The position numbers and the translations under genes are program-made. Below, one piece after another: positions 4,058 through 35,631 of a stretch of DNA of 35,873 nucleotides (position 1 is its first letter; each line of letters opens with the position of its first letter). Source of the stretch: a virus; IMG/VR virus record IMGVR_UViG_3300020233_000127, positions 1 to 35,873 of that record; one strand, written 5' to 3'. The notes beneath the pieces were generated by a model that made no database searches, was not told where the DNA came from, and worked only from the letters and a program-made list of their open reading frames with translations.

Positions 4058-4093
4058 TATAGTTAGAAGAACCCGAGAACCACTTTAGGGCTT
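4058..4093 (+). promoter_or_regulatory. Degenerate leader element copy E2
   Basis: GAACCAC at 4077-4083 lies in a loop closed by CCC (4072-4074) / GGG (4088-4090). TATAGT at 4058-4063 looks like a -10 box. The ACAACACGAGG tail is missing before the start codon; a loosely similar AAACACGGGAG lies just inside the gene. It may be a decayed copy of the element. Confidence 0.3.
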
Positions 4094-10999: not shown

Positions 11000-11001
11000 A
11001 T

Positions 11002-11280: not shown

Positions 11281-11281
11281 T

Positions 11282-11313: not shown

Positions 11314-11319
11314 AATAAC

Positions 11320-11370
11320 GCTCTGAACCACTGTACACCGATAAGTGTACAAAGAGCACAACAACACGAG
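11320..11370 (+). promoter_or_regulatory. Leader element copy E4
   Basis: Outer stem GCTCT (11320-11324) / AGAGC (11353-11357). GAACCAC is at 11325-11331. Inner stem TGTACAC (11332-11338) / GTGTACA (11345-11351) has a CGATAA loop. The tail ACAACAACACGAG (11358-11370) is followed 6 nt later by the ATG. This is one of the best-formed copies. Confidence 0.8.
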
Positions 11371-11376
11371 ATTACT

Positions 11377-11748
11377 ATGAGTCAACAGACTGGGGAAACC
11401 CGCGACGCAATTATTGAAGAGGACAACAAACAAATTGCCGACATCGTCGATGCAAATAAGAACCTTCGGGAACCTTATTGGATTGTGGTGTTTGCAAAAC
11501 CCTCCAAGAGTTGGGTAGACGGGATGCCTACATTGATAAAACACATCAAAGCTTATAAGGCCGAGCCTTCATCTCAAGTGGGGATGATTGCTGGAAAGGT
11601 CGATAACCTGAAAGGGACTATCGATTGGGAGGTCAATATGCCTCAGCGTCCTTTTAATTTTGATGCCCTCCCAGGATTGGGAGCTAAGGCGTGTGATGAA
11701 CTTGTCGTAGAAACAACAACCATCCCGCAAGCCTACGTAACACAATAG
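11377..11748 (+). CDS. Conserved-looking phage protein before the scaffold, function unknown
   Basis: A 123-residue protein between portal and scaffold genes, with its own leader element (E4). The core is alpha/beta (YWIVVFAKPSKSWVDGMPTL, SSQVGMIAGKVDNL) and ends with WEVNMPQRPFNFDALPG. The strongly patterned 'WEVNMPQRPFNFD' suggests a conserved family, but I cannot name it. Position suggests a head assembly or minor head protein. The strong leader suggests that it is made in quantity. Confidence 0.6.
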   Translation: MSQQTGETRDAIIEEDNKQIADIVDANKNLREPYWIVVFAKPSKSWVDGMPTLIKHIKAYKAEPSSQVGMIAGKVDNLKGTIDWEVNMPQRPFNFDALPGLGAKACDELVVETTTIPQAYVTQ

Positions 11749-11760
11749 TGCCGCCAACAT

Positions 11761-11785
11761 TAGCACTGAGACACTGAAGGTGCTA
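11761..11785 (+). promoter_or_regulatory. Hairpin upstream of the scaffold gene
   Basis: TAGCAC (11761-11766) / GTGCTA (11780-11785), 13-nt loop, with no U-run after it. AAGGAG (11801-11806) then precedes the scaffold ATG by 10 nt. It lacks GAACCAC and ACAACACG, so it is not a copy of the recurrent leader element. Confidence 0.4.
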
Positions 11786-11816
11786 GAAAGGGCGTATTTA
11801 AAGGAGTAACACCGCG

Positions 11817-12497
11817 ATGAGCGAAGAAGTACAAGTTTCGGGCGAACAAAATATGGAGGCCGCCGCTCCAGTAGAAGCGAATGTTGAACAATCTCAACCT
11901 GAGAGTGCTAATGAAGGAAATGCGCAGGCAGTTCCATTGTCAGCATTACAGTCAGAAAGAGAGCAGCGTCAGCAACTACAAGAAGAGCTTCGAACGATTA
12001 AGGACCATTTGGCTCTGGTTGAGTCCAATCAAAACCGCCCTACACCTCCTCCTTCCAAGGACGAGTTTGAAGGGATAGATGATGGCGATGTATTGACATA
12101 TGGGGATGCTAAAAAGCTCCTCGGGTCAGTGCAAAAAAATTATCAAGGTTCGATTGAAGAACTCAAGATGACTCAAAAACATCCCGATTATCAAGAAGTG
12201 ATTCAAAGGTATTTACCGGAAGTTTTAAAGACGAATCCTGCGCTGCGCAGGTCACTGGAGCAAACTCAAGATTATGAACTTGCTTACCATTTGGCTAAGA
12301 CATCTGTGTCTTTTATAGACCAGAATAAGAAAACGAAGAAGTCCCTAGATGCCCAACGCATAGTGGAAAACTCGGCACAGGCCGGTAGTTTATCTAGTCT
12401 AGGGTCGACTTCTCCTATTTCGCAAGCCAAGAGATACAAGGACATGAAGGACAGTGAGTTCCGTGAGCTGGTAAATCGTAATTTAGGAGTCGTTTAG
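11817..12497 (+). CDS. Capsid scaffolding protein
   Basis: A 226-residue protein directly before the major capsid gene. It is rich in Glu and Gln, with a disordered N-terminus (about 1-40), a coiled coil (SEREQRQQLQEELRTIKDHLAL), a Pro patch, helical middle parts and a C-terminal segment with basic residues (KRYKDMKDSEFRELVNRNLGVV). This order is typical of scaffolding proteins of P22- and N4-gp56-type phages, whose C-terminus binds coat protein. The identification rests on composition and gene order, not on a catalytic motif. Confidence 0.8.
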   Translation: MSEEVQVSGEQNMEAAAPVEANVEQSQPESANEGNAQAVPLSALQSEREQRQQLQEELRTIKDHLALVESNQNRPTPPPSKDEFEGIDDGDVLTYGDAKKLLGSVQKNYQGSIEELKMTQKHPDYQEVIQRYLPEVLKTNPALRRSLEQTQDYELAYHLAKTSVSFIDQNKKTKKSLDAQRIVENSAQAGSLSSLGSTSPISQAKRYKDMKDSEFRELVNRNLGVV

Positions 12498-12502
12498 AAA
12501 AC

Positions 12503-12560
12503 GCTCAGAACCACTTCTCTAGCACAGTGCTGGAGAGATGAGCACGACAACAACACGAGG
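12503..12560 (+). promoter_or_regulatory. Leader element copy E5 (major capsid)
   Basis: Outer stem GCTCA (12503-12507) / TGAGC (12539-12543). GAACCAC is at 12508-12514. A long inner hairpin pairs TCTCT/AGAGA and AGCA/TGCT (12516-12538). The tail ACGACAACAACACGAGG (12544-12560) is followed 5 nt later by the ATG of the most abundant virion protein. Confidence 0.82.
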
Positions 12561-12565
12561 ATATT

Positions 12566-13507
12566 ATGACTATAACCACAGTAAGTGTGTTACCTCCAGC
12601 TGTTCGGGAATACTATGACAGACTGCTATTGATGACTGCGTATCCAACGCTCATCTATAACAAGTTTGCTCAGAAACGTGTTCTTCCCGAAAAGAATGGT
12701 GACACTATTGTGTTCCGTAGATATTCAAGGCTCTCGACAGTGCCTATCCCACTTATTGATGGTACAACCCCTCCTGGGGCACCTCTTAGTGCGACAGACA
12801 TTAAAGCGCGAGTTTCTTTTTACGGAAACTTTGTAACTATAACGAACCAAGTTGAACTGACAGTAGAAGATAGGGTTCTTAACGAATCTGCTCGCCTACT
12901 TGCACAAAACATGGCTCAGACAATGGATGAAGTGACTAGAGACGTTCTTGCGTCAACTAGCTCAGTTCTTCAATGTTCTAATGGTTCTAACGGAAACACT
13001 CCGACTGAACTTACAAAAGAAGATATCGATTCAGCAGTAAATACACTTCTTGGAAACGACACAGATATGATTTCTGAAGTCGTTACAGGTCGTGATGCTC
13101 TAGGTACTTCTCCTGTTCGCCCTGCGTTCTGGGGATACCTTGATACTGATATTCTAGATGATCTAGAAGCTGTATCTAACTTCTTAAATACAAGCAACTA
13201 CGCTCAACAAGGAACTGTTCTTGACGCGGAATGGGGCTCAACTGGAAACGTAAGATGGCTCTACACTTCTGTAGGATCTGTTTCTAGCGCAACTCCCGCT
13301 GTTTATAACAACTTCATTGTTGGTAAAGAAGCTTATGCACTTGTTCATCTACGTAGCGAAACTGGAGACTTCTATATTGAGCCTCTAGGTTCTGCTGGTT
13401 CTGCCGATCCTCTTCATCAAAGAGGTTCTGTAGGTTGGCAGCATCCTTTCGTAGCCCGTATTTTGAACGATGCTTTCATGCTAAACCTAATGTCAACCCA
13501 TAGTTAA
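12566..13507 (+). CDS. Major capsid protein, N4-gp56 family
   Basis: A 313-residue protein with the layout of the N4-gp56 coat family: N-terminal YYDRLLLMTAYPTLIYNKFA and VLPEKNGDTIVFRRY, then TPPGAPLSATDIKARVSFYGNFVTI (the E-loop and spine of a HK97 fold) and a C-terminal GKEAYALVHLRS, GWQHPFVARIL. Hundreds of copies form the icosahedral shell. It lies between the scaffold and a decoration-type gene and has its own leader (E5). Codon choice looks regular, as expected for a highly expressed gene. Confidence 0.92.
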   Translation: MTITTVSVLPPAVREYYDRLLLMTAYPTLIYNKFAQKRVLPEKNGDTIVFRRYSRLSTVPIPLIDGTTPPGAPLSATDIKARVSFYGNFVTITNQVELTVEDRVLNESARLLAQNMAQTMDEVTRDVLASTSSVLQCSNGSNGNTPTELTKEDIDSAVNTLLGNDTDMISEVVTGRDALGTSPVRPAFWGYLDTDILDDLEAVSNFLNTSNYAQQGTVLDAEWGSTGNVRWLYTSVGSVSSATPAVYNNFIVGKEAYALVHLRSETGDFYIEPLGSAGSADPLHQRGSVGWQHPFVARILNDAFMLNLMSTHS

Positions 13508-13518
13508 GGAGAACGGAT

Positions 13519-14124
13519 ATGTCACAGATGAAAGTTAGTGGTTTTACCAATCCTGCTTCGGGAACGGCAGCCACAAATGTCAGTATGGGATTCCAAGTGG
13601 ATTCTATCACTGTCACCAATAGTACAACAGGGGCAATTAGATCATGGAATTCTTCCATGGTTGATGGTTCTTATTTTGATGTAGCAGCAGGAACATATAC
13701 CGCAACAAACGGTTTTACTCCTCTCTCTCAAAGTGCTACTTATGGAGCTACTATTAGTGGCTTCACAAATGCAAGTCCTGGGGTCCTTACAGTGAATAAC
13801 ACTGCTGACTTTGGATTTGCGGTTGGAGACACAATTAAAGTTGCGGAAGTCGCTGATGACGGCACTGGAACTGTGGATCTGAATGAAAATTACGTAATTG
13901 CTTCTCTAACAGCAACGACAATCACTACTGCTACTGATACTTCAGTAACAGGATATAGTGTTTACGTTTCTGGAGGAGTCGTAACAAGAGTATCTGATAC
14001 AAATGGAGTTCCTATTGCTACCGAAAACGTAGCAATTCAAGGTCTTACATTTGGAACAGGTGTGATTGGAACTGATAGTGACGTAATAACTTACGTTGCG
14101 CTTGGTTCTAATTCTGTAGTTTAA
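13519..14124 (+). CDS. Head decoration-like protein with a FCCH-like beta domain
   Basis: A 201-residue Thr/Ser/Gly-rich beta protein next to the coat gene, typical of head decoration proteins. Residues about 78-160 (ISGFTNASPGVLTV, GFAVGDTIKVAEV, LNENYVIASL, YSVYVSGG) form a small beta module like the FCCH domain of ubiquitin-activating enzymes, which is widespread in phage structural proteins. Similar modules occur in the proteins at 16191 and 28094. TAAGGAG precedes the ATG. A strong terminator follows the gene. Confidence 0.7.
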   Translation: MSQMKVSGFTNPASGTAATNVSMGFQVDSITVTNSTTGAIRSWNSSMVDGSYFDVAAGTYTATNGFTPLSQSATYGATISGFTNASPGVLTVNNTADFGFAVGDTIKVAEVADDGTGTVDLNENYVIASLTATTITTATDTSVTGYSVYVSGGVVTRVSDTNGVPIATENVAIQGLTFGTGVIGTDSDVITYVALGSNSVV

Positions 14125-14131
14125 ATAACTT

Positions 14132-14161
14132 GGGAGGGGACTAAATATCCCCTCCCTTTTT
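14132..14161 (+). terminator. Intrinsic terminator after the capsid genes
   Basis: Stem GGGAGGGG (14132-14139) / CCCCTCCC (14149-14156), 9-nt loop, then TTTTT. It closes the capsid-decoration unit. Leader element E6 begins at the end of the T-run. Confidence 0.85.
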
Positions 14162-14205
14162 CTCCGAACCATCTACCGAAAGGTAGGGAGAACAACAACA
14201 CGAGG
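14161..14205 (+). promoter_or_regulatory. Leader element copy E6
   Basis: Outer stem TCTCC (14161-14165) / GGAGA (14187-14191). GAACCA is at 14166-14171. Inner stem CTACC/GGTAG is closed by a GAAA tetraloop (14178-14181). The tail ACAACAACACGAGG (14192-14205) comes 5 nt before the ATG. It directly abuts a terminator, leaving no room for a conventional promoter. Confidence 0.8.
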
Positions 14206-14210
14206 TAAAC

Positions 14211-14570
14211 ATGGACCAAGAAGCCAAAGATAAACTTAAGTTAGAAAAATATAAACAACTTCCAATCGTTGGAGAACAACCAAAGTCAGAAAAAGAAGAA
14301 GCTTTTTTGAGAGAAGTTTGTGAATACGAATTCATGAATCTCGAAGAGCCTGGGCTAAGCATTTCTTTTCCTTATGGTAATACAAAAAATAAAGAGGACT
14401 TTACCTTTTTCCATGGAGCCAAATACAAGCTCCCCCGTTTCATTGCTAGGCATATGGAAAGCTGTTCAAAGCCTATTTGGAAATGGAGACCTGACGGCAC
14501 TGGCCGCATGGATAAACAGAAGATTGGGAATGATCCCCGTTTTCAAATGCGCCAAACTTTTGCGCTCTAA
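14211..14570 (+). CDS. Small head protein, function unknown
   Basis: A 119-residue protein with a charged N-terminal helix and a patterned core, FTFFHGAKYKLPRFIARHMES, then KPIWKWRPDGTG. The 'FxxFHGxKYxLPRxxxRHxES' string looks like a conserved phage virion family, but I cannot give a name. Position between decoration protein and the head-tail adaptor fits a head completion role. It has its own leader element (E6). Confidence 0.6.
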   Translation: MDQEAKDKLKLEKYKQLPIVGEQPKSEKEEAFLREVCEYEFMNLEEPGLSISFPYGNTKNKEDFTFFHGAKYKLPRFIARHMESCSKPIWKWRPDGTGRMDKQKIGNDPRFQMRQTFAL

Positions 14571-14579
14571 AGAGGAATT

Positions 14580-15473
14580 ATGAGTACGTGGACATTAGCT
14601 GATATTCGTCAAAAAGTTAGACAGGTAACTGGTCGATTTAGCTCTAACGAGATCACCAATACCCAATTAGACGACTATATTAATAAATATTATACACTGA
14701 CGTTCCCTGCTGAAGTGAAGCTAGAGCAAAAGCATGTGTACTATTCGTTCACTACTGCTGCCAACCAAGCTTTTTATGATCAGCCGGAGACCACATTCAC
14801 GAACTTTGAACCACCTGCTACTGTCAATAATCTTCAGTTGCTATGGTATCAAGACCCTTCCTATTTCTTCGAAAATAACCCTCTTCAATACACATTTTTA
14901 ACGCCCTGGACAGGAGACGGCTCCACGTTGTTGTTCAGCACAACCGTGACAGGGTTTCCTATCTATCCAGGGACATTAACCATTAGTGATACCGTAGAGC
15001 TTTTCCAAGACACCAACGAAGATTGGACGGAGAGCAATGTCGTCATCACTGGAGACCAAGGTGGGACTGCGACCATTAATTATGATACGGGAAGCGTCAG
15101 CGTTACTTTTGCTACAGCCCCTACCAATGGACAACTCATCAATCTTAACTATGTGATTTTCCAACCTGGAAGACCCCAGGCAATTTTGATGTACAACAAT
15201 CAATTTCAGTTATTCCCTGTCCCCGATCAAGCCTACATCGTAGAGATGCGCGCTTATTCAGTAGTAACAGAGCTTACAAGCGCTACTGACACTCCTGACT
15301 TAAACGAGTGGGGCCCTGCTATTGCCTATGGAGCTGCTAGAGATATTTTCTCTGACTATGGAGAACTCGACTCGTATGCAGAGACTACGCAACTTTATAA
15401 AGAACAAATTGCCTATGTACTTAAACGAACCAACCAAGACCTGCTGAATACACGGTCTACACCAAATTTTTAG
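14580..15473 (+). CDS. Head-tail adaptor-like protein
   Basis: A 297-residue protein. The N-terminal helices (LADIRQKVRQVTGRF, QLDDYINKYYTLTFPAEVK) and the C-terminal WGPAIAYGAARDIFSDYGE with a final helix resemble head-tail adaptors of podoviruses. A beta insertion sits in the middle (FLTPWTGDGSTLLFSTTVTG, TGSVSVTFATAP). It is expected to form a ring under the portal. The gene order (head protein, adaptor, fibre tip, nozzle) supports this. AGAGGA precedes the ATG. Confidence 0.7.
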   Translation: MSTWTLADIRQKVRQVTGRFSSNEITNTQLDDYINKYYTLTFPAEVKLEQKHVYYSFTTAANQAFYDQPETTFTNFEPPATVNNLQLLWYQDPSYFFENNPLQYTFLTPWTGDGSTLLFSTTVTGFPIYPGTLTISDTVELFQDTNEDWTESNVVITGDQGGTATINYDTGSVSVTFATAPTNGQLINLNYVIFQPGRPQAILMYNNQFQLFPVPDQAYIVEMRAYSVVTELTSATDTPDLNEWGPAIAYGAARDIFSDYGELDSYAETTQLYKEQIAYVLKRTNQDLLNTRSTPNF

Positions 15474-15482
15474 GAGATAAAG

Positions 15483-15623
15483 ATGAAAACGACAGCGCTT
15501 ATTAGCCTTATTTTCTTACTGGGAGGATGCACCATGCATCTCAAAACTGATAATAAACAAGACGAAAAGGATGTCTGCGTAGAAAAGGAATTCTATATCG
15601 GGCCTAAAGTCGGTAAAAACTAG
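15483..15623 (+). CDS. Small lipoprotein
   Basis: A 46-residue protein starting 9 nt after the adaptor stop, behind AGGAG. It has a lysine-containing N-terminus, a short hydrophobic stretch (ALISLIFLLGG) and a lipobox LGGC with Cys16, so it should be lipidated and anchored in the cell envelope. The mature part is only about 30 polar residues. Phage lipoproteins of this size serve as outer spanins or block superinfection. It lacks the Pro-rich composition of many outer spanins and sits far from other lysis candidates, so exclusion is at least as likely. Confidence 0.65.
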   Translation: MKTTALISLIFLLGGCTMHLKTDNKQDEKDVCVEKEFYIGPKVGKN

Positions 15624-15632
15624 GAGATTATT

Positions 15633-16190
15633 ATGGCTTTTGATCCAGCTCTTCCTGCAAATAGTACAAAGTTAAGGTTGGCTCCTGGGGTCATTCAAGA
15701 CAACTGGGTCGCAATTGAAGAAGCCCAATCTTCATTTAAGCCTCAAGCAATTAACCTCGACAATAGAACTCCTCTGGCAGTTTCTAATGACCCTACTGCT
15801 ATTGCTGATGCTTATATTACTTATTGTAAAGACGATGCGGCGGGTAACCCCGAGTTTTTCGGAATCAACGAGAGTAGTCAGATTACTCAGTTGACTAGAG
15901 GATCTCCCGCTTATGCGAAACCAGGCCAAATTTATTTAGCTGGTGGGATGTTGATCCAATGGAATTCGGTTTCTGTAGCTTCAGGGGGCACCATAACCTT
16001 CCCTACGGCTTACATAGAAGCGGCCTATTACGTGAATTTTATTGTCGGGGGCTCTCCTCCGAGTAATAGGGTTTATCAAAGGATTGTAGGTACTCCCACT
16101 TCTACTTCATTTGTTCCTTCCCTTTTAGATAAAGCTGCAAACGCGATCACAGCGACTATTAATTGGATATCCATAGGAAGAGTAACTTAA
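15633..16190 (+). CDS. Tail fibre tip-like protein
   Basis: A 185-residue protein. The C-terminal ~80 residues (GGMLIQWNSVSVASGGTITFP, AYYVNFIVGG, INWISIGR) match the layout of the beta-sandwich at the tip of many tail fibres ('IQWG..tVtFP..F..ayyv.......W.aiG'). The N-terminal part is short and may attach to the tail. It probably contributes to receptor binding or plugs the tail. It is followed with no gap by the nozzle-like gene. Confidence 0.65.
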   Translation: MAFDPALPANSTKLRLAPGVIQDNWVAIEEAQSSFKPQAINLDNRTPLAVSNDPTAIADAYITYCKDDAAGNPEFFGINESSQITQLTRGSPAYAKPGQIYLAGGMLIQWNSVSVASGGTITFPTAYIEAAYYVNFIVGGSPPSNRVYQRIVGTPTSTSFVPSLLDKAANAITATINWISIGRVT

Positions 16191-18125
16191 ATGAGTACAC
16201 CGGTTTCACAACTCATAGCTCCTTTTAAAACTGGGTTAGATACCGATATTCAACCTTGGCTCGCTCCTCCTGATTCTTTTTCTGTGCTCAATAATATCCA
16301 CATAGAGCATGGATTTTTAGAAAGAAGAAATGGATTCCAGTTTTTTGCTCCTTCTGGACAGTCCCAATTAACTAATGCGACAGCCGTAACAGGGTTTGGT
16401 ACCTATATAGAAACCGACACTGGGGCTCAAACTATGTTGGCGTTTGATACTCTGAGCGCTTACACCTACAGTGGAGTTACGGAGTCTTTTACCCAGCTTA
16501 CGAATTCTGGCGGAGCCATGTCAGCTACGATTTTTTCGGGAGTAGATAGTGACTTTATATGGAGCACCAGTTGGCAAAGTACAGCTATATCCAATGTGAA
16601 TAGACTCTATTTTTCTAATGGATTGACCTGGAATAATACCAATGAAACCGATGGATTATGGTATTTTGATGGAAGTACAACCGTTACTTCTTTAAAGCCC
16701 ACGACAGGAGGGGCTAATTTTCTCGTTGGAGGAAAGTTAATTTTCAGCTTAGGCCAACGATTAGTGGTCCTTTATACCTATGAAGCGGCAACCGTTGCTA
16801 CGGCTTCTACACGATTTCCCCAGAGAGCGAGATGGTGTGCAAAACAAAATCCTGCTAATTGGAGTGATACTGTGGCTGGTGGGGGAGATTTTGCGGACGC
16901 TGCTACTTCGGATCAAATCATCTCGGCTCAACTTCTTCAGAATCAAATAATCGTTTTCTTTACCAATTCTGTTTGGTCTCTTCTTCCTACTTCCGATCCC
17001 AACAAAGCCTTTAGATGGCAAAAGATTAATAACTTCCGCTCTTGTGATGGGAAAATGGCGAGTGTTGCTTATGATCGCTTCACAGGCGCTTTAGGAGTCC
17101 GAGGAATTACCGCAACAGATGGTATTAATACTACTCGCATGGACGAACGAATTTCGGACTTTACGATCGAAGAAATTTCTCAATCTGATTTCGGAAATAC
17201 TTTCTGTGCACGAGATTATAACAATCGTCGATGGTGGTCTCTTTACACCGATGGATCGAGCAGTTCTAACACCAGAGCGCTAATTTTTGATGATGATTCT
17301 GGTGGATTTTCTACTTACGACATTGCAATGAATTCTTTAGGTTATGGAATAGAAGGATCCGATTATGAATTTCAAGATTTTAGCGTGGCTAACAATAAAG
17401 ATTTTTCCTTCGAAGATTTTGGGGAGGATGAAACGTTCCTTTCTTACTACTTCCAAGGGAATGTTCAATTATTTTTGGGAGGAGATACTTCCGGTTTCAT
17501 TTATCAGTTGGACATAACGAGCGCGGATTTAACCGCGGCTATCGATTCTACCCTAACATCTGCGGCGTGGAATCCCTTTAAGGAAGAAGGGAAAGAATGC
17601 CTGATGCCCTACATGGACTTTTTTGTTGAAACTTCTCCTTGTACTACAGCCACCATTAGCTTTTATAAAGATACATCTCAAACTCCTTATACTTCCCAAG
17701 TTATAGACTTTCTTCCTGATCTCAATTTTATCACTCTTATTGCCGATATCGATCTGTCCAATCCTTGTAATGTTAATGCCCCTGGACATGGTCTTACTAC
17801 CGGCGATGAAATCTATATCTATCTTGTAGAGGGAATGACAGAGATAAATAGTGGAGAAGAGGGTTTGCCTTATACCGTTACCGTCGTTGATGGAGATAAT
17901 ATTACGTTAGATGGAATCGACAGCGCCGCCTTTACTGCGTACACGTCGGGAGGAAGTCTTTTTTTCCGCCAATTTTATCGTACCAAAACTTGGAAACGAG
18001 CTTATGCAGGAGGTATAGGATTCCAGCATCGAATTATGTTTAGTGCGTCTGGAGCTCAGGATCCTTATAGAATTCATGCGATGAAGCCTTATTTTAAAGC
18101 ACGAGGGAAGAGGACGATTAACTAA
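16191..18125 (+). CDS. Tail tube/nozzle-like protein with embedded FCCH-like domain
   Basis: A 644-residue beta-rich protein. Its N-terminus (FKTGLDTDIQPWLAPPDSF, GFLERRNGFQFF) and following blade-like repeats resemble nozzle or stabilisation proteins of podovirus tails, which extend the adaptor ring. The part FPQRARWCAKQNPANWSD is typical of these. Residues about 515-595 contain a FCCH-like insertion (CNVNAPGHGLTTGDEIYI, YTVTVVDGDNITLDGID, FTAYTSGG). The ATG follows the previous stop directly and the stop shares a base with the next ATG. Confidence 0.7.
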   Translation: MSTPVSQLIAPFKTGLDTDIQPWLAPPDSFSVLNNIHIEHGFLERRNGFQFFAPSGQSQLTNATAVTGFGTYIETDTGAQTMLAFDTLSAYTYSGVTESFTQLTNSGGAMSATIFSGVDSDFIWSTSWQSTAISNVNRLYFSNGLTWNNTNETDGLWYFDGSTTVTSLKPTTGGANFLVGGKLIFSLGQRLVVLYTYEAATVATASTRFPQRARWCAKQNPANWSDTVAGGGDFADAATSDQIISAQLLQNQIIVFFTNSVWSLLPTSDPNKAFRWQKINNFRSCDGKMASVAYDRFTGALGVRGITATDGINTTRMDERISDFTIEEISQSDFGNTFCARDYNNRRWWSLYTDGSSSSNTRALIFDDDSGGFSTYDIAMNSLGYGIEGSDYEFQDFSVANNKDFSFEDFGEDETFLSYYFQGNVQLFLGGDTSGFIYQLDITSADLTAAIDSTLTSAAWNPFKEEGKECLMPYMDFFVETSPCTTATISFYKDTSQTPYTSQVIDFLPDLNFITLIADIDLSNPCNVNAPGHGLTTGDEIYIYLVEGMTEINSGEEGLPYTVTVVDGDNITLDGIDSAAFTAYTSGGSLFFRQFYRTKTWKRAYAGGIGFQHRIMFSASGAQDPYRIHAMKPYFKARGKRTIN

Positions 18126-19641: not shown

Positions 19642-19650
19642 GGAGATAAA

Positions 19651-20772
19651 ATGGTATTAGTTACACAAAATAATTTAGGCGGATTAGGCCAAGGAATTCA
19701 GCAGGTTGGGAGCGCTCTAGCTCAGGCTCTCTCACAAAGAGGGGAAAATAAACGATTCCAAGAGATTTTTAATCCTCAACAGCAGCAAACCCAAAATGTT
19801 GGGGAAGATGAGGCATTTAGAACTAAGTTTATGGATATGCTCCAAACTTATGAAAATGAGAGCGGAGAACTTCTGGAACCAAATCAAGTTGATTTCTTAT
19901 GGAATAATGCTGTTTCTGCTGCTCAACAACCTTCCCAAGAACCAGGTCAACCCCGACAATATAATCAAAGGCAATTAGCCGAGATTGCTCGTACGAATCC
20001 TCAACTTGCATCTATGCTTCAACAAGGTCAACTAGCTCGCGATAAGATGACGCAGAAAGAGGAAATGGAAACCTCTAAACGCGCTTTTGAAGAAAATAAG
20101 CCTTTTGTAGAGCAAATGAATAAAATTCGTGATGGACTTGCTACCAAGGAAATAAATCTTTTTAGGATTAATGAAGCTTTGGATTCTGGAAATGTCAAGA
20201 CCTGGCAAAACTTTATGGCCGATTATTTTGATAATGAATTTATTAGAAGTGTGGAAGGAGCGGAATTATTATCCGCCACAAAGGAAGAGTTTTTGTCCGA
20301 TATGCAGCAAATGCCTCCAGGAACTCGTTTAAATCAATACCTTGAAAAGAACATGAGAGAAGCTCTCCAAACGATTGGGAAAAATGTAGAAAGCAATAGA
20401 ATAATTACTCGATTCCAAGAATTTAAACTTGATATCAGTAAGGAAAAATTAAAAATATTTGACAACATAAGAAATAAATATTTGGATAAAGGGTTAGAGC
20501 CTCCTAGAAATCTACAGTCTATGGTAGACAATCAATTAAAAGAGTATACTAACAAAAGACAAAAAGAATTTACTAAAGATGTTAGAGACATTCGGGCTGG
20601 AAAAATTAAATCTACTGGAGGTTTAGCTTTGGAAGAAGCGCGTAAGAGAGTAAAAGAGCTCCCTTCTGAGCCTGGTACCGTCTGGATGCTTGCTCCCGAT
20701 GGGAATACCTATCCGATCCCAAAAAATAAAGTTAAGGAAATGCAATCTAAAGAAGGTGGAATAATTTTATAA
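19651..20772 (+). CDS. Ejection (internal virion) protein, second of three
   Basis: A 373-residue helical protein. It begins with a Gly/Gln-rich segment (NNLGGLGQGIQQVGSALAQAL) and a QQQQTQN run, then long charged helices (ENKPFVEQMNKIRDGLA, FQEFKLDISKEKLKIF) to the end. Composition, length and position fit a DNA-ejection protein packaged in the head. AAGGAG precedes the ATG, and the TAA shares a base with the next ATG. Confidence 0.6.
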   Translation: MVLVTQNNLGGLGQGIQQVGSALAQALSQRGENKRFQEIFNPQQQQTQNVGEDEAFRTKFMDMLQTYENESGELLEPNQVDFLWNNAVSAAQQPSQEPGQPRQYNQRQLAEIARTNPQLASMLQQGQLARDKMTQKEEMETSKRAFEENKPFVEQMNKIRDGLATKEINLFRINEALDSGNVKTWQNFMADYFDNEFIRSVEGAELLSATKEEFLSDMQQMPPGTRLNQYLEKNMREALQTIGKNVESNRIITRFQEFKLDISKEKLKIFDNIRNKYLDKGLEPPRNLQSMVDNQLKEYTNKRQKEFTKDVRDIRAGKIKSTGGLALEEARKRVKELPSEPGTVWMLAPDGNTYPIPKNKVKEMQSKEGGIIL

Positions 20773-22457
20773 TGAGTGCATCTACCGCTTGGTCACAATA
20801 TACTCCTTTAGATGATGGAAACGAAACTCCCCAAGAAATGGATGCCTGGTCTCAGTTTACTCCTCTACCTCCTCCTGAAGTAAATGTTCCCGAACTTCTA
20901 AAGGAAACAGCTAAGGGGCTTGGAAGAACCGCAGGAAGAGGCGCAGCTTCTTTATTAGCGGCTCCTTCTAAAGGAATTGGAGGAATCTTAGAATTATTAT
21001 CTAAAATCTATCCGGAAGATGAAGGATTAAGAGGCGCACCTCGTAAAGGTTTAGAATCTGCTGGAATGTTTCTTCAAGAAATTGGAGAAGGCGGACAAGA
21101 ACAGTTAAAGGGACTAGTAGAAGATGTTTTAGGTAAAAGTTATGGATCGGGGGAAGAAGCTCTAGCAGAATTTACGGAGCGAGCGGCAGATATCTATGGA
21201 CGTGGCCCTTTAAAAGGGATGGGGGCTCCGTCAGTCATTGGGGGTGCTTCAGGACAAATAGCCAAAGAACTCGGAGCTCCCGAAGGGATACAAGAGATAG
21301 CCGAATTGATTGGTATTGGAGTTCCGGATGCTAAGAAAGCCGTTTCTGCTGTAAAATCAGTGCAAAAAATTAAAGAAAAATCTGGTCTAGTGCTTCCTAG
21401 AATTATGGATAAAACTGAGGAAGGATGGAAATTCCTAAAAGGGAAAGTTTTTCCTAAGGCCAAAGAAAAAGCCTATGAAAAAGTTTCAAAGCAGGCTGAA
21501 GAACTTCTCAATTCGATGAAATCTTCTAAATTTCCCCTTTCTGTAGAAATTGAAAAAGGAGTTGATGTTGAAGCAAGATTAAATAAAGATTTAGGTAAAT
21601 TAAATAAACTTGCTTCTAAAATGGATCATAAAATTGAAAGTAATTTCATTTCTAATTATCTTAATAAAACAGAAAAAAATATCAAACTGACCCCTGTGCC
21701 GTCTAAAGAAGAAGAAGAAATATTAGGATTAATTTCTAAATTTAAAGAAAAGTTTGGGGAAGGTGTTGGAGGGAAGAGATTTTATACGCCTCAAGAGTAT
21801 GTAAGTCAATTTAGAAAAATAAATCAGGATGCGAAATCTTTATATGAAAGAGCTTTTATTGAAGGTAAAAAGGGACAGGTCCGACAGTTCTATGGAGGAT
21901 TAAATAAAGAAATTGGGAAAACACTCGAAAACGGAACTCCAGATTCTTTTTCAAAATTATTTAAAGAAACTAATGCCCAATATAGTGAATTGCAAAAACT
22001 TAATTCCTTTGAAGAAATAATTGAAAAAGTTACTTCCAAAGGAGTTTTAGATGCTAAAAAGTTTAGTAATATATTTAAATCTCCTTCAAAGTCTAAAGTA
22101 TTAAGGAAACAAGTAGGCCCCGAATCTTTTGAACAAATGAGACTTATTTCTGGTGATTTAGAAAAAGTAAAAGATAAATTGGGTCTTCTAGATGAAATTG
22201 GAGTAAAAGAAATTGTCAAATCAGCTGCTGTGGGGGGAATTCTAACTAAACTTGGGCTTGGTAAAGTGGGTATCCCTATCCAAGCGGGGAAAAAGGTATC
22301 GGAATTAGGTTATGGTTATTTTTTACTTAACCCAAAAGGACAAAGGGATTTTAGAAATTTCTTAAAAGCTCTTCAATCGGGAAATAAAAAAGCCGTTGAA
22401 AGATATCTGAAGACCATGGATAAACATGCTCTCAAGGAAGAGGAGAAAACTCAATAA
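20772..22457 (+). CDS. Ejection (internal virion) protein, third of three
   Basis: A 561-residue protein. The N-terminus has two WSQ(Y/F)TPL repeats, then Gly/Ala-rich amphipathic helices (GLGRTAGRGAASLLAAPSKG, APSVIGGASGQIAKELG) able to contact membranes, and a long Lys/Glu-rich helical C-terminus. This resembles the large ejection proteins that cross the envelope ahead of DNA. No lytic transglycosylase motif was seen, though such a domain is common in this class. It ends the rightward virion operon. Coding resumes on the minus strand 74 bases later. Confidence 0.6.
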   Translation: MSASTAWSQYTPLDDGNETPQEMDAWSQFTPLPPPEVNVPELLKETAKGLGRTAGRGAASLLAAPSKGIGGILELLSKIYPEDEGLRGAPRKGLESAGMFLQEIGEGGQEQLKGLVEDVLGKSYGSGEEALAEFTERAADIYGRGPLKGMGAPSVIGGASGQIAKELGAPEGIQEIAELIGIGVPDAKKAVSAVKSVQKIKEKSGLVLPRIMDKTEEGWKFLKGKVFPKAKEKAYEKVSKQAEELLNSMKSSKFPLSVEIEKGVDVEARLNKDLGKLNKLASKMDHKIESNFISNYLNKTEKNIKLTPVPSKEEEEILGLISKFKEKFGEGVGGKRFYTPQEYVSQFRKINQDAKSLYERAFIEGKKGQVRQFYGGLNKEIGKTLENGTPDSFSKLFKETNAQYSELQKLNSFEEIIEKVTSKGVLDAKKFSNIFKSPSKSKVLRKQVGPESFEQMRLISGDLEKVKDKLGLLDEIGVKEIVKSAAVGGILTKLGLGKVGIPIQAGKKVSELGYGYFLLNPKGQRDFRNFLKALQSGNKKAVERYLKTMDKHALKEEEKTQ

Positions 22458-22531
22458 ATTCTTTAGTCGTTGCACAACCATACTATTGGAACTAAGAAAG
22501 CGAAAAAAGTTATGATTCCTTCTACCATCCT

Positions 22532-22741
22532 TTAATTCTCCTTTGCGTCGTCGTCTTTCTTATAGGGATGTTCATGAGGATCTAAGCGAAATTTAATCCA
22601 CATTATTTCTTCTCTGTTTTTCTGTATCTCTTTTTGAAGTTCCTTCATCCCAGAGTCCATTCTATTGAGAAGAAAGACAAAAAAGACCAAATTGATCCCA
22701 AAAACGCTTAATATAATCGTCAGAATTGAAACTACATCCAT
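22532..22741 (-). CDS. Single-TM phage membrane protein (holin-like)
   Basis: A 69-residue protein with one N-terminal membrane span (VSILTIILSVFGINLVFFVFLL, 4-25), then a charged coiled coil (MKELQKEIQKNREEIMWIKFRL) and a His/Asp/Lys tail. Small one-TM proteins with this outline occur in lysis cassettes (XhlA-type or holin-associated). AAGGA lies 7 bases before the ATG. It converges with the end of the ejection operon. A holin role is a guess from topology. Confidence 0.55.
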   Translation of the reverse strand: MDVVSILTIILSVFGINLVFFVFLLNRMDSGMKELQKEIQKNREEIMWIKFRLDPHEHPYKKDDDAKEN

Positions 22742-22800
22742 ATTTTGTCCTTATTTTCCTATATTCTACCACAAAGCCGTTTAAAAGCGATATAAAGAGA

Positions 22801-22836
22801 TTATTATAAAAATAAGGGGAGCATACTACTCCCCTT
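22801..22836 (-). terminator. Leftward intrinsic terminator of the outer-membrane-like gene
   Basis: On the minus strand AAGGGGAG / CTCCCCTT (22814-22821 with 22829-22836, 7-nt loop) is followed by a U-rich run opposite 22801-22813. It sits 57 bases past the stop of the gene at 22893-23417. Confidence 0.75.
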
Positions 22837-22892
22837 CAGATAACGCACGAGACACGCAATCTGGACATCAACTTTGGGTTCTCCCCACCAAG

Positions 22893-23417
22893 TCAGTACA
22901 AAACCCCTACTTTTAGCCCAATTTTATTGATCTGGTCGTAGGTACCTCTATAAAATCGAGTAGGGATATAATAAATTTCCGCAAACGGAGAAGGTCCCTC
23001 GTTTCTCTTGAAAGAATAACCCCAACAAAACGATGGGCACCAACAAAAGCGGTCCTTTTTGCGGTAAGAAGAATTCTTAAGGGAGTAAAATTCTCCTCTT
23101 ACCCCTACTCCAGTATAGAACAGAAATGAGGGAGTTTCTTTTGCGATGGAAAGAAAGTGAAAAGAGAGGCTCGTAAGATGGCCATGAGTCCAGGAAAGGT
23201 TTAGAAACTTATAGGTCCCATGGAAATCGTACATAAAAACGTTGCGCTGATAGCGATATCCAATCCCAGCCTCTTCGCTTGATATGTCATATGAGACATA
23301 AGGAGAGTGTCGTGTGTGAGCCAACGATAATTCAGAAGGTGGAGTATTTTCTTCAGCATATCCATTAACGAACAGGGTAAAGAGGGAAAGCATAATAGAT
23401 AGAGATATTTTTTTCAC
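22893..23417 (-). CDS. Secreted beta-barrel-like outer membrane protein
   Basis: A 174-residue protein starting at GTG with AAGG 7 bases upstream. A signal peptide is clear (KKISLSIMLSLFTLFVNGYA, then EE). The mature part alternates polar and aromatic residues in short strands (SPYVSYDI, GIGYRYQRNVFMYDFHGTY, SPFAEIYYIPTRFY) and ends in ...KVGVLY, an aromatic C-terminus as required by the BAM machinery. A CWCPSFCW stretch is notable. It is a monocistronic unit with its own promoter and terminator, so it may be a cargo gene that changes the host surface, for example to block superinfection. No exact family is assigned. Confidence 0.65.
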   Translation of the reverse strand: MKKISLSIMLSLFTLFVNGYAEENTPPSELSLAHTRHSPYVSYDISSEEAGIGYRYQRNVFMYDFHGTYKFLNLSWTHGHLTSLSFHFLSIAKETPSFLFYTGVGVRGEFYSLKNSSYRKKDRFCWCPSFCWGYSFKRNEGPSPFAEIYYIPTRFYRGTYDQINKIGLKVGVLY

Positions 23418-23426
23418 GGTTGAGCC

Positions 23427-23444
23427 TTAAAAAACTGGTTTAAA
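23427..23444. promoter_or_regulatory. Dyad site 1 (AAAAAAC-TG-GTTTAAA)
   Basis: An imperfect inverted repeat around a central TG, in the untranslated leader of the outer-membrane-like gene just downstream of its probable -10 (minus strand). It is closely similar to the site at 23845-23864 upstream of the recombinase unit. It may be an operator or a recombinase core site. Confidence 0.4.
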
Positions 23445-23641
23445 GATATAGAGTTCAAGTTTTTTTTTCAATAAATTTAGGATAACTCACTCTAATTAGA
23501 AGACAGAATACCTGTTTTTTGTTTTTCCCTCTATGAGAAAACCGGAATTTATAGATTAAAAAGATCGTTCCTTCCATCTCCACCTAAAAAGGGTAGTGTT
23601 TTTAAAAAAAGACCAGCTAGAATTCTAGCGCCTCTTTTCTT

Positions 23642-23743
23642 TCTACCCCCCCACTCAAAAAATACGTCTTGACTAGGGGGGTCTTCATAGAGAGAAATAA
23701 GTTTATGACTGAGGGGTTAGTCAAGTTTGACTAGGGGGGTAGA
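23642..23743. repeat. Four iteron-like repeats, consensus TTTGACTAGGGGGGTAGA
   Basis: Copies: 23642-23660 (inverted; reads TTTTGAGTGGGGGGGTAGA on the minus strand), 23668-23682 (CTTGACTAGGGGGGT), 23704-23720 (TATGACTGAGGGGTTAG, diverged) and 23725-23743 (GTTTGACTAGGGGGGTAGA). GACT starts of the direct copies are 36 and 22 bp apart. TAGTCAAGTTTGACTA (23718-23733) adds a dyad. The arrangement resembles protein-binding iterons. Confidence 0.6.
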
Positions 23744-23844
23744 TATAAGAGTTCACTATACGCCCATTAATGGAATCCAAAGCACAAAGTCTAATTTTTA
23801 TGTCGGCACGGTGGTGGACACTTTTAAAAAACGCTTAATTTCAG

Positions 23845-23864
23845 TTTAAAAACTGGTTCTTAAA
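23845..23864. promoter_or_regulatory. Dyad site 2 (TTTAAAAAC-TG-GTTCTTAAA)
   Basis: A 9-bp inverted repeat with one mismatch around a TG core. It overlaps a possible -35 (TTAAAT, 23860-23865), which is 17 nt from TATAAA (23883-23888), for the two-TM protein and recombinase genes. Same orientation as site 1, 418 bp away. Its form (short arms around a 2-bp core) recalls Hin/Gin-type crossover sites. Confidence 0.4.
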
Positions 23865-23920
23865 TCAACGGTCAGTTATGTTTATAAAAATACAAATTCG
23901 GAACATAAAAAAGAGGTAAA

Positions 23921-24094
23921 ATGAGAATAATTAGAAGTGTGGGGTATGTTCTCGTTATCATTATTTTAGTCGGCATGCAATTTTGTATTAATACTGAGAA
24001 CTGGATAGGGTTGATAAAAATATATTTGAGCCTTATAGGAGGGACTCTTGGAGGAGGACTTTTTTATAATGTTTGGAGATGGACGGATAAATAA
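23921..24094 (+). CDS. Two-TM small membrane protein (class II holin-like)
   Basis: A 57-residue protein behind a good AGAGG. It has two hydrophobic segments, VGYVLVIIILVGMQFCI (7-23) and IKIYLSLIGGTLGGGLFY (32-49), separated by a short polar loop, and a basic end (WRWTDK). This hairpin topology is that of class II holins, but superinfection or transporter-like mini-proteins look the same. Its TAA shares a base with the ATG of the recombinase, so the two genes are translationally coupled. Confidence 0.6.
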   Translation: MRIIRSVGYVLVIIILVGMQFCINTENWIGLIKIYLSLIGGTLGGGLFYNVWRWTDK

Positions 24095-24660
24095 TGAAAT
24101 TTGGTTATGCACGTGTTTCCACTCCTGAGCAATCATTAGAAAACCAAGTCGCTAATCTTGAAGCTGCCGGATGTGAAAGAGTCTTTAGCGATAAAGTCTC
24201 GGGAACTAAATCTTCGCGACCTGGATTTCAAGAACTCCAAAAACAACTACGTCCAGGAGACGTCGTTACCCTTACTTCTTTAGATAGGCTTGGAAGAACT
24301 AGCAGATTGCTCTTAAGATTGCTAGAAGAATGGGGAAAAGAAAATATTCATATCCATGTTTTATCTTTAGCGATGGACACTTCCACATCGGGCGGAAAGC
24401 TTATGTTTTCTATCATGGCAGCTCTGGCGGAGTGTGAAAGAAATCTGGGACGTGAAAGAACGCTTAAAGGGCTTCAAGGAGCGCGCGCTAGAGGAAGAAA
24501 AGGGGGACGTCCGAAGAAGCTCACTGATACACAAGTGAGTCGAATGATACAAATATATGAAGAAAAAAGACTGAGTCTGAAAGAAATTCGCATAATGTAT
24601 GGAATTGGTAAAACTACTCTTTTTAATTACATAAAGAGAGAAAATAAATCCCAATTGTAG
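24094..24660 (+). CDS. Small serine recombinase (resolvase/invertase)
   Basis: A 188-residue protein of the resolvase/invertase family. The catalytic domain shows YARVSTPEQ with Ser9 as nucleophile and Arg7, and LDRLGR (Asp64, Arg65, Arg68). A long E helix carries MAALAECERNLGRERT. The linker GRKGGRPKKL leads to a C-terminal HTH (SLKEIRIMYGIGKTTLFNYIKRE). Such enzymes resolve multimers or invert segments; they do not normally integrate phage genomes. On a circular replicon, dimer resolution fits. Dyad site 2 and G-rich repeats lie upstream and may be its targets. Confidence 0.88.
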   Translation: MKFGYARVSTPEQSLENQVANLEAAGCERVFSDKVSGTKSSRPGFQELQKQLRPGDVVTLTSLDRLGRTSRLLLRLLEEWGKENIHIHVLSLAMDTSTSGGKLMFSIMAALAECERNLGRERTLKGLQGARARGRKGGRPKKLTDTQVSRMIQIYEEKRLSLKEIRIMYGIGKTTLFNYIKRENKSQL

Positions 24661-24707
24661 TATAATTATTATGTAAGATATAAGTTAATTTTTTGTTTGG
24701 AGCAAAT

Positions 24708-24926
24708 ATGGAACAACTATCAATTCAGCAGATGGATATGTTTGACGGACCAATAACAGCCGACTTTTTACATGGAGAAAAAATCAGAAGGCTCGAAGAG
24801 CAACAAAATAATCTTCGCAAGGGGATATTTCGGAGATGGAAAGAACAAGAAGATAAGATTCAGACATTGTCAGAATCACTGACTCAGGTCCTAAAACTCC
24901 TCGAAAGGGAGTGTAATGATGGATGA
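24708..24926 (+). CDS. Small coiled-coil protein
   Basis: A 72-residue protein. ATG 24708 is chosen because GGAG ends 6 bases before it. An acidic start (MDMFDGPITADFLHG) leads into a helix (EEQQNNLRKGIFRRWKEQED, LSESLTQVLKLLEREC) likely to form a coiled coil. It overlaps the next small gene. Function unknown. Confidence 0.55.
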   Translation: MEQLSIQQMDMFDGPITADFLHGEKIRRLEEQQNNLRKGIFRRWKEQEDKIQTLSESLTQVLKLLERECNDG

Positions 24927-25071
24927 GACTCTTGATTTGGTATTGTCCGATGAAACCATAACCTTCATAGAAGCAATTTTTTTGCTTAGAGATCATTTAA
25001 ACTCTCTCCAGAAAAATGCCCAATATGAGGTGATTGAGGATTTAAAATATGCCTGCTCGTCAGAGAGGTAA
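24916..25071 (+). CDS. Small acidic helical protein
   Basis: A 51-residue protein with tandem ATGs (24916, 24919) preceded by AGGGAG and overlapping the coiled-coil gene by 11 nt. Sequence is helical and acidic (DETITFIEAIFLLRDHLNSL, EVIEDLKYAC). It ends 12 bases inside the convergent gene at 25060. No family recognised. Confidence 0.5.
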   Translation: MMDETLDLVLSDETITFIEAIFLLRDHLNSLQKNAQYEVIEDLKYACSSER

Positions 25072-25374
25072 AGACGGTTTCCCATATTCCTCTAGAAATT
25101 GCCTAAAAGGTCTAGAGCAGTATTCTTCTTGATCCTTCATTATTTTATCACTTTCTCTGGCTCTTTCTTCCCGAAGAAGGGCTCTATCTTTGTGTATTTC
25201 TTTAAGGATCTTGTCCATTTCCTTTTCGTGTTCTTTATGACAGTAACATCCACATTCTACATCAAAAGCAGGAGCAATTATGGCCTTATCCGGTCTCTGA
25301 TAAATAAACCCACCTACTAACAGCAAAAGCGAAACGACCATTAATATAATCGTGGGACGAGAAGGAGTGGTCAT
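25060..25374 (-). CDS. Membrane-anchored coiled-coil protein (spanin-like)
   Basis: A 104-residue protein with an N-terminal membrane span (TIILMVVSLLLLVGGFIY, 8-25), then ECGCYCHKEH (Cys41, 43, 45, His46, 49), which could bind a metal or form disulfides, and a long charged helix (HEKEMDKILKEIHKDRALLR). TM plus periplasmic coiled coil matches inner-membrane spanin topology. The Cys/His cluster is unusual for that class. Its ATG overlaps the stop of the gene upstream (ATGA). Confidence 0.5.
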   Translation of the reverse strand: MTTPSRPTIILMVVSLLLLVGGFIYQRPDKAIIAPAFDVECGCYCHKEHEKEMDKILKEIHKDRALLREERARESDKIMKDQEEYCSRPFRQFLEEYGKPSLPL

Positions 25375-25745
25375 TTTTTCTTATCTCTTTCTTCTTTTTC
25401 TTTAGCTTTTCGATCTAGATCCCGACGGTGGTCTTCCCAGGCTTTCTTTTCTTCGTCTTTTCTACGCTTTTCTTCCTCTGCTCGCTTGCGTTCTTTTTCT
25501 TCTTTTTCTTTCTTCTCTCGGGCTTGCCGCTCGTGATAATCTTTCCAATACTGAGCTTCTTTGCGGTCGGCCGCATCCTGACGCATTCGCCTCTCCGCTT
25601 CCTTCTTGATTCCCTCTTCGTCAGCATGAAGATCTAAGCTATGAGAAAAGGCAAAGAGTTTAGAGCCCCCTGAAACTTTCACGATTCCAGCGAATAGTAC
25701 TCCACACAATGCCCAATACGATGCAGACAGAAATAATTTGTTCAT
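25371..25745 (-). CDS. Membrane-anchored highly charged coiled-coil protein (spanin/TolA-like)
   Basis: A 124-residue protein with an N-terminal hydrophobic segment (LSASYWALCGVLFAGIVKV) and a very Lys/Glu-rich continuous helix from about residue 44 to the end (EKKEKEEKERKRAEEEKR), similar in form to TolA domain II or long inner spanins. Its ATG lacks a nearby Shine-Dalgarno; a strong AGGAGG lies 19 nt upstream and better serves the nested ATG at 25758. Translation may therefore be coupled to the nested peptide. Confidence 0.5.
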   Translation of the reverse strand: MNKLFLSASYWALCGVLFAGIVKVSGGSKLFAFSHSLDLHADEEGIKKEAERRMRQDAADRKEAQYWKDYHERQAREKKEKEEKERKRAEEEKRRKDEEKKAWEDHRRDLDRKAKEKEERDKKK

Positions 25746-25758
25746 AATTTATAACCAT
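25660..25758 (-). CDS. Nested 32-aa membrane peptide overlapping the coiled-coil gene
   Basis: On the minus strand, AAGGAGG followed 6 nt later by ATG opens a 32-codon frame: a short polar start, a hydrophobic run (IISVCIVLGIVW) and a basic end (IRWNRESFRGL). It overlaps the first ~28 codons of the gene at 25371-25745 in another frame, and both frames encode a membrane segment. The Shine-Dalgarno is itself in a hairpin CCTCC/GGAGG (25765-25777). It may be a lysis or control peptide, or simply a leader for coupled translation. Confidence 0.4.
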   Translation of the reverse strand: MVINYEQIISVCIVLGIVWSTIRWNRESFRGL

Positions 25759-25785
25759 TTTACACCTCCTTTGGAGGCTTTCATT

Positions 25786-26007
25786 TTAGCGCGTTTCTAT
25801 TTCTCTGTCTTCCTTCATTACTTCTTTAAGATAGTGACGAAGAGCCCGAATGACAAATGTAGCCATAGTGATTCCGTTATCGGCTGCTAATATCTTTAAA
25901 AGTTGGTGATCGCTGGGAATAACGTTCACCACAATTTTTTTAGACTTAGGCTGTTCCTCACGGGCACGATATCTCATCAATTTCTCATTTAGGTAAATGT
26001 TTACCAC
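25786..26007 (-). CDS. Ribbon-helix-helix DNA-binding regulator
   Basis: A 73-residue protein if GTG 26007 is the start; ATG 25977 would give 63 residues. The C-terminal half, KKIVVNVIPSDHQLLKILAA then GITMATFVIRALRHYLKEV, has the short beta strand and two helices of the CopG/Arc fold, which binds DNA as dimers. The basic N-terminal extension resembles ParG/CopG tails. An inverted repeat GGTAAA-N2-TTTACC lies over or just before its start, consistent with autoregulation. It is divergent from the fibre operon at 26101, which it may control. Confidence 0.65.
   Translation of the reverse strand: MVNIYLNEKLMRYRAREEQPKSKKIVVNVIPSDHQLLKILAADNGITMATFVIRALRHYLKEVMKEDREIETR
25992..26005. promoter_or_regulatory. 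Probable operator GGTAAA-N2-TTTACC
   Basis: A perfect 6-bp inverted repeat with a 2-bp centre, overlapping the GTG start or 15 nt before the ATG start of the ribbon-helix-helix gene. Such short dyads are usual targets of this regulator fold. Confidence 0.45.
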
Positions 26008-26022
26008 ATTTGTATTTTTTTG

Positions 26023-26051
26023 TTGAATAAAAATCGTTACCGAAGAGAATA
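26023..26051 (+). promoter_or_regulatory. Possible promoter of the fibre operon
   Basis: TTGAAT (26023-26028), a 17-nt spacer, then AGAATA (26046-26051). A start near 26058 would place leader element E7 at the extreme 5' end of the message. The -10 box is only fair. Confidence 0.4.
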
Positions 26052-26060
26052 AAAAGTAAA

Positions 26061-26093
26061 AGCCTGAACCACATCTAGGCTCTCAACACGAGG
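26061..26093 (+). promoter_or_regulatory. Leader element copy E7 (fibre operon)
   Basis: Stem AGCCT (26061-26065) / AGGCT (26077-26081) encloses GAACCAC (26066-26072) with no inner hairpin. CAACACGAGG (26084-26093) is followed 7 nt later by the ATG. This is the smallest copy and defines the minimal element. Confidence 0.78.
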
Positions 26094-35578: not shown

Positions 35579-35584
35579 CGTGGT

Positions 35585-35631
35585 TCTCCGATTTCGTGTT
35601 GTCCTAAACCTCACACTTCCATGTTGAGGTT
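35585..35631 (-). promoter_or_regulatory. Leader element variant E8 (recombination operon)
   Basis: On the minus strand a hairpin AACCTCA / TGAGGTT (35607-35613 with 35625-35631) is followed by ACAACACGA (35602-35594) and then GGAGAACCAC next to the ATG. The parts resemble the recurrent leader, but GAACCAC lies after the tail and not inside the stem. Either a permuted variant or a coincidence of short motifs. Confidence 0.35.

Follow-up and report, generated by a model that had tools for sequence, protein, structure and literature searches.

The 35,873-base virus record IMGVR_UViG_3300020233_000127 (hereafter the window, i.e., the whole stretch of DNA analysed) carries repeated copies of a structured RNA element, a hairpin followed by a single-stranded tail, the loop letters of which are uniform within a genome and differ between genomes. 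Judged from the aligned copies, the element has three conserved parts: a stem with free letters, a loop nnACCAC that starts right after the 5' stem strand, and an A/C-rich tail with the core ACACG(NG)A; an extra hairpin on the 3' side of the loop is present or absent. The reading that we favour, with roughly even confidence, is that this module marks many transcripts of the phage for an RNA-binding regulator that the phage encodes and that acts on translation initiation. The window has a 91-base terminal repeat and, therefore, probably represents a complete genome; it encodes a P22-type portal (PF16510) and a capsid protein with Phage_capsid_4 and PHROG 1357 matches, and the carriers of the element are a group of uncultured tailed phages.

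Five clear copies, placed by the original prediction at 8787, 11320, 12503, 14161 and 26061, each with a different stem, are found at these positions (Table 1). A covariance model (R2), built from alignment A4 of hand-curated copies and run over the window unfiltered, at full sensitivity, scored them at 36.0, 29.7, 33.0, 33.4 and 29.4 bits, respectively (expect value E from 9e-9 to 7e-7), and the next window match at 5.5 bits (E 4), a result that indicates separation and not independence, the five copies being training members. Single-strand folding yields a hairpin in each of them, as originally drawn (z-scores −2.1 to −3.1); the different stems all pair, and the tail is single-stranded in the folds, except at 26061, where it is partly drawn paired. 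All copies named earlier lie on the coding strand. The tail string has seven matches in the window at three or fewer mismatches, compared with a mean of 2.0 and a maximum of 6 in shuffled sequences. The sixth copy claimed, at 208, is real though divergent: it folds (z −2.8) and is nearly identical in the closest relative, but its tail ACAACACGAAAG lacks GG and a second hairpin, not a start codon, comes next. Together with a permuted copy on the minus strand (35579–35640), it forms an early-operon pair that had not been recognised. The stem at 4070–4094 is imperfect in the window and perfect (AACCC/GGGTT) in the relative G001.

The collection of homologues through the capsid and portal proteins gave about 100 related virus contigs, and the compensatory change first seen within one genome, and taken there as a sign of RNA structure, holds across the homologues added. 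Across 24 curated sequences, the six-pair stem pairs in 94% of cells. Two-sided changes occupy 39 cells, compared with 10.1 ± 3.0 in shuffled alignments, none of 500 reaching this number; when the partner is slid by one to three columns, pairing falls to 21–48%. Both controls overstate the case somewhat, because the 3' stem strand was aligned by eye to obtain pairing. The main support for the stem comes from the agreement with independent folding and from the many different stems. Compensatory covariation beyond shuffled and slid controls, which is the mark of a structured RNA, is observed. Inspection by eye revealed no conserved complementarity between loop and tail that would form a pseudoknot.

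The covariance-model search proposed with the original prediction matched 22 of 35 related records at E ≤ 0.05. All 58 matches of the locus search are on the plus (gene-sense) strand, chance-level ones included, and 97 unrelated contigs chosen for the same letters scored no higher than 19 bits under the structure model. Letter-only scans of IMG/VR returned mostly an unrelated coding string and CA-rich leaders (≤19 bits), and letters alone were consequently not taken for the element; a loose descriptor of stem and tail alone exceeded shuffled sequences only about 1.6-fold. An earlier model (R1), trained on nine portal leaders alone, recovers three portal leaders (L101, L102 and L103) and the L098 capsid leader (E 0.06), and matches the portal copy of the window weakly (E 1). 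Only very close relatives (≥96% capsid identity) retain the motif at the capsid gene, and its range therefore looked very narrow at first. The portal leaders showed otherwise: at the portal gene, the motif is widespread in phages with portal identities down to about 60%. The original remark that no named Rfam family fits stands even at permissive thresholds: searches of Rfam 15 gave no match for the window at gathering thresholds, for window positions 8600–14300 at E ≤ 1 or for four loci at E ≤ 2, and three relatives at E ≤ 1 gave only eukaryotic chance matches.

The only relative found in the collection of cellular genomes is L383 (JAAKFB010000001.1), a 36-kb phage contig with a capsid protein 85% identical to that of the window, which sits in a metagenome-assembled genome labelled Chlamydiae. 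The contig has the size of a whole phage and was possibly misbinned; its placement is a possible hint of the host. A portal query against cellular genomes gave no match, and two marginal motif matches in 234 chlamydial genomes were treated as noise. In unrelated phages (L289, L306, L280 and related contigs), a hairpin TTGCGGG-CCACCAA-CCCGCAA, followed by ACCAACCAACACGAGGAGACTGTATG, precedes a protein of about 430 amino acids.

A passive structure would be expected to show more similarity between orthologous copies than between the copies of one phage. The stem letters fit this expectation (gene effect, P 0.006; no genome effect, P 0.84), whereas the loop shows the reverse, with an identity of 0.942 between copies within a genome versus 0.733 between orthologous copies of different genomes (P 0.0002), and the tail also shows a genome effect (0.77 within versus 0.71 between, P 0.0002); all these P values are indicative, and G002, a near-duplicate of the window, was excluded from the test. 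Restricting the comparison to the six closest phages leaves the loop effect equally strong (0.95 versus 0.63), but no tail effect is seen (0.74 versus 0.75). The window and G002 combine GAACCAC with ACAACACGA, G001 has ATACCAC at all five copies with CCAACACGA, G033 has ATACCAC with ACACACGA, and the group of G023, G028 and G030 has ACACGTGA. Phage L315 carries GTACCAAC with AAACCACGCGA at all three copies, before three genes, and L316 carries ACGCTAC or ACGCTAT, with no ACCAC, at both hairpin copies; a search for further L316-like phages with an ACGCTAY loop gave no new one. Such parallel replacement at unrelated sites is what a trans-acting reader co-evolving with its sites would leave, and it suggests that one matching trans-acting factor, probably made by the phage, reads all the copies of a phage. 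Of the functions that the original prediction listed, the best fit is a phage regulator's binding site, since the loop and tail letters are homogenised within a genome and the stem letters are not.

Most copies end within about 20 nucleotides of a start codon. The claim that the tail carries the Shine–Dalgarno sequence is correct for some copies: at the capsid gene and g14211, the tail ends in GAGG adjoining the AUG. Other tails have no GAGG, lie between the Shine–Dalgarno sequence and the AUG or enter another helix; the tail of the 11320 copy ends in GAGA and not in the GAGG that had been reported, and at g11817 in several relatives there is a separate AAGGAG upstream and the tail reaches into the AUG (TACACGCGATG). 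In the early copies, the tail ends in GAGA, GAGT or GAAAG, with another hairpin immediately after it (terminator-like in one phage, G005), and the core ACACG(NG)A persists in the absence of a Shine–Dalgarno sequence; the tail is not simply a Shine–Dalgarno spacer. The description as a late-gene element is too narrow, since copies flank divergent early operons as well as late genes; the 'fibre' label of the gene at 26101–28065 was a guess, and this gene has no PHROG match. In L374 (G005), L370 (G032), L369 (G004) and L371 (G009), an A-run precedes the early copies, so that the opposite strand reads as an intrinsic terminator, and a further hairpin with an A-run lies downstream; an antisense transcript at the replication gene leader of these four phages is possible.

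The portal leader contains a second RNA domain. The tail of the portal copy at 8811–8824 (AACAACACGCGAGG), originally read as carrying the Shine–Dalgarno sequence, does not act as a plain one; it enters a structured leader of about 85 nucleotides with the portal AUG at 8909 and provides the 5' strand of a helix P_a (GCGAGG/CCUCGC). The domain was found in at least 21 phages, including L126, L143, L158, L160, L324 and L336, in each case upstream of the portal gene, and P_a pairs in 21 of 21; it has no Rfam match. The loops of its two hairpins are mutually complementary in each phage, with about ten different loop pairs (e.g., CCGTAT/ATACGG, CCAATA/TATTGG, CTACCA/TGGTAG and CGTAAC/GTTACG), and the complementarity of a phage's own pair amounts to 5.8 bases, compared with 3.9 when pairs are mismatched (none of 400 permutations reached 5.8). 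Alternatively, the GCG that immediately precedes the AUG can pair with the CGC of P_a (CGCATCC/GGATGCG, CGCTTCC/GGGAAGCG and others; 7.2 versus 5.96 ± 0.26 bases, 0 of 300 as high), although 5 of the 21 phages lack this helix at the start codon chosen. Since P_a and the alternative helix share bases, the leader is built like a translational switch. Phages that lack the hairpin-and-tail motif can have the domain as well, and it seems to be an element in its own right. Window positions 8700–8780, ahead of the portal copy, hold a conserved non-coding stretch (GACTGGAG..CCCAG..AAAGACGGTAGCCCTTC..GATCCGTCGA.AAATTGAGGATGGGC), common to L314 and partly to L315.

A third RNA element spans the start of the gene 11817–12497, which precedes the major capsid gene in the position of a scaffold gene and putatively encodes a scaffolding protein. 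The stem of its GCCGCCG-loop hairpin covaries in 74 of 75 distinct sequences and has a mean of 4.8 pairs, compared with 2.2 ± 0.15 after shuffling (0 of 1000 as high); a change of this stem from GAG..CTC to GAA..TTC replaces Ala with Val. In several relatives, the hairpin-and-tail motif is nested between the CGCC and GGGCG of the leader hairpin.

Table 1. RNA features of the window, with their positions, strands and composition.
Feature	Position	Strand	Composition
Early copy upstream of replication gene g436	208..250	+	Stem GAGGAGG/CCTCCTC; inner GC(GAACCACT)GC; tail ACAACACGA; then hairpin CCACAAG/CTTGTGG
Copy at ParB-like gene g4094	4070..4094	+	CCC/GGG around GAGAACCACTTTA, directly before ATG 4094
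Portal-gene copy	8787..8824	+	Stem TGGCT 8787-8791/AGCCA 8803-8807; loop GAACCACTACT; tail AACAACACGCGAGG 8811-8824
Portal-leader domain, overlapping the tail	8819..8911	+	P_a GCGAGG/CCTCGC; hairpin with palindromic GATC or AGCT loop; kissing loops CCGTAT/ATACGG; alternative helix TCGCACTT/GAGTGCGA next to AUG 8909
g11377 copy	11320..11370	+	Stem GCTCT/AGAGC; GAACCAC; inner hairpin TGTACAC/GTGTACA; tail ACAACAACACGAG; ATG 11377
Third RNA element	11747..11875	+	Leader hairpin CGCC...GGGCG; coding-sequence hairpin, loop GCCGCCG, ~11854-11870
Major capsid gene copy	12503..12560	+	Stem GCTCA/TGAGC; GAACCAC; 9-bp inner hairpin; tail ACGACAACAACACGAGG; ATG 12566
g14211 copy	14160..14205	+	Stem TTCTCC/GGAGAA; GAACCAT; inner hairpin; tail CAACAACACGAGG; ATG 14211
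g26101 copy	26061..26093	+	Stem AGCCT/AGGCT; GAACCAC; tail CTCAACACGAGG; ATG 26101
Early leftward copy, permuted order	35579..35640	-	Stem AACCTCA/TGAGGTT; tail ACAACACGA; then GGAGAACCACG; ATG of gene 35288-35579

In the mechanism proposed here, the variable stem would present the loop nnACCAC, followed by the unpaired tail, and this cis-acting module would tag numerous transcripts of a phage for one common trans-acting partner. That partner would most likely be a sequence-specific RNA-binding protein, encoded by the phage and recognising the loop and tail together. Its action would most likely be on translation initiation, given the proximity of most copies to start codons, with tails that overlap or flank the Shine–Dalgarno sequence or the AUG; the outcome may be a coordinated expression of the portal, capsid and other morphogenesis genes and of the early operons. 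At the portal gene, P_a would compete with the CGCAYCC/GGRUGCG helix reaching the AUG, and binding could flip the translational switch. The early copies and the nearby terminators make a site of processive antitermination or attenuation, similar to lambda nut or HK022 put, the strongest rival; there, the nascent RNA, with or without a phage protein, would modify RNA polymerase to pass terminators. Copies at both divergent early operons, an intrinsic terminator (14132–14161) immediately before the g14211 copy and the terminator-like hairpin directly after the early copy of G005 are in line with it, and so are the genome-matched loops known for lambdoid N/boxB pairs. Phage HK022 also has its putL and putR sites, each composed of two stem-loops, in both early operons (PMC9378689). 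We consider antitermination unlikely, as late copies mostly adjoin start codons and are repeated within 1–3 kb of the same operon, the g11817 tail reaches into the AUG, and the portal leader points to switching at the level of the start codon.

A stabiliser of mRNA and enhancer of translation that works purely in cis, composed of a 5' hairpin, an unstructured CA-rich spacer and a weak Shine–Dalgarno sequence, with no dedicated partner, would account for the CA-rich unpaired tail and for the hairpins near promoter-like sequences at 208 and at the g4094 and g26101 homologues. It leaves unexplained the invariant ACCAC, the parallel genome-wide replacement of loop letters at unrelated sites and the copies without a start codon, and seems rather improbable. 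The presence of copies between genes throughout long operons, with or without an adjoining start codon, would suit an RNA processing site, where endonuclease cleavage at the tail separates operon segments and leaves hairpin-protected ends; the hairpin lies 5' of the tail, however, so that such cleavage would leave it on the upstream fragment, and, no candidate nuclease having been identified, we give processing little credence.

Several observations weigh against a phage-encoded regulator of translation. Some early copies do not adjoin a start codon, a placement that control of translation leaves unexplained, and the Shine–Dalgarno sequence differs only slightly at motif genes, where it is slightly weaker, as the cis-only explanation would have it. 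The copies were hand-curated and the shuffling treats genomes as exchangeable, hence the indicative P values of the letter test, and a host factor varying with the host would produce the same genome-specific letters. No gene exclusive to motif carriers was found. The only RNA-binding-like candidate, the protein encoded at 3513–3824, is present in motif carriers and also in motif-free relatives; it has no Pfam or PHROG match, but a SpoVG fold, i.e., a nucleic-acid-binding fold, was predicted with good confidence (predicted local distance difference test, pLDDT, 89), and many of its homologues end in an SSB-like acidic tip (e.g., DDSDIPF, EEEEVPF). With the fold supported and the distribution not specific, this protein was not adopted as the partner and may be regarded as a weak candidate. 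A phage antisense RNA is an unlikely partner, since a search of the same genomes gave no consistent complement to the loop or tail.

One of the closest known systems is RegA of phage T4, a small phage protein that competes with the ribosome at translation initiation regions and thereby regulates about 30 mRNAs (PMC3014915). Copies of the present element overlap the translation initiation regions of several genes, and one phage protein would likewise act on many mRNAs at ribosome-binding sites; however, RegA sites are A+U rich and have no clear secondary structure, whereas all the sites here form a hairpin in which the loop and tail are defined. Pfam and PHROG scans of window proteins, covering a subset of the open reading frames, gave no RegA homologue. 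The operators in the T4 gene 32 and gene 43 mRNAs are structured RNAs located at the ribosome-binding site, to which a phage replication protein binds (PMC3014915); they resemble the element in structure and location, but each is an autoregulatory site on one gene, while the copies described here are spread across many genes. The put sites of HK022 (about 70 nucleotides) comprise two stem-loops that form a V with a triplex and need no dedicated trans factors (PMC9378689). They share with the element the location in both early operons, but put is not found at start codons, and most copies here consist of one hairpin of 35–60 nucleotides and a tail before structural genes, a second hairpin being present only in early copies. 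In lambdoid phages, short boxB hairpins are read by the phage protein N, and the loop letters are phage-specific and common to the left and right sites. Both early operons carry a site here too, but the order differs, with boxA ahead of boxB in lambdoid phages and the unpaired element after the hairpin here, and the consensus has no U-rich boxA; late copies abut start codons, and no N-like protein was identified. The product of the first leftward gene (35288–35579) is acidic, and no N-like protein is annotated, such peptides being hard to detect. The autoregulation of the P22 scaffolding protein is a precedent for post-transcriptional control of head genes, and the portal described here is P22-like (PF16510); we know of no repeated hairpin-and-tail module in P22.

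Perhaps this phage clade as a whole directs a large part of its gene expression by a phage-encoded RNA-binding regulator that has co-diverged with its hairpin-and-tail sites into a private code, together with the kissing-loop switch at the portal gene and the coding-embedded structure before the capsid gene, although we hold this broader proposal at somewhat below even confidence. The element would represent a multi-site structured RNA regulon in phages that is absent from Rfam, and natural variants already suggest that the loop and tail are specific, with the stem serving as a scaffold only. The natural swaps of letters make the search for the reading factor directly experimental and new orthogonal RNA–protein pairs possible, and the kissing-loop leader offers a testable model for the low-level production of the portal protein, which is needed in few copies per particle.

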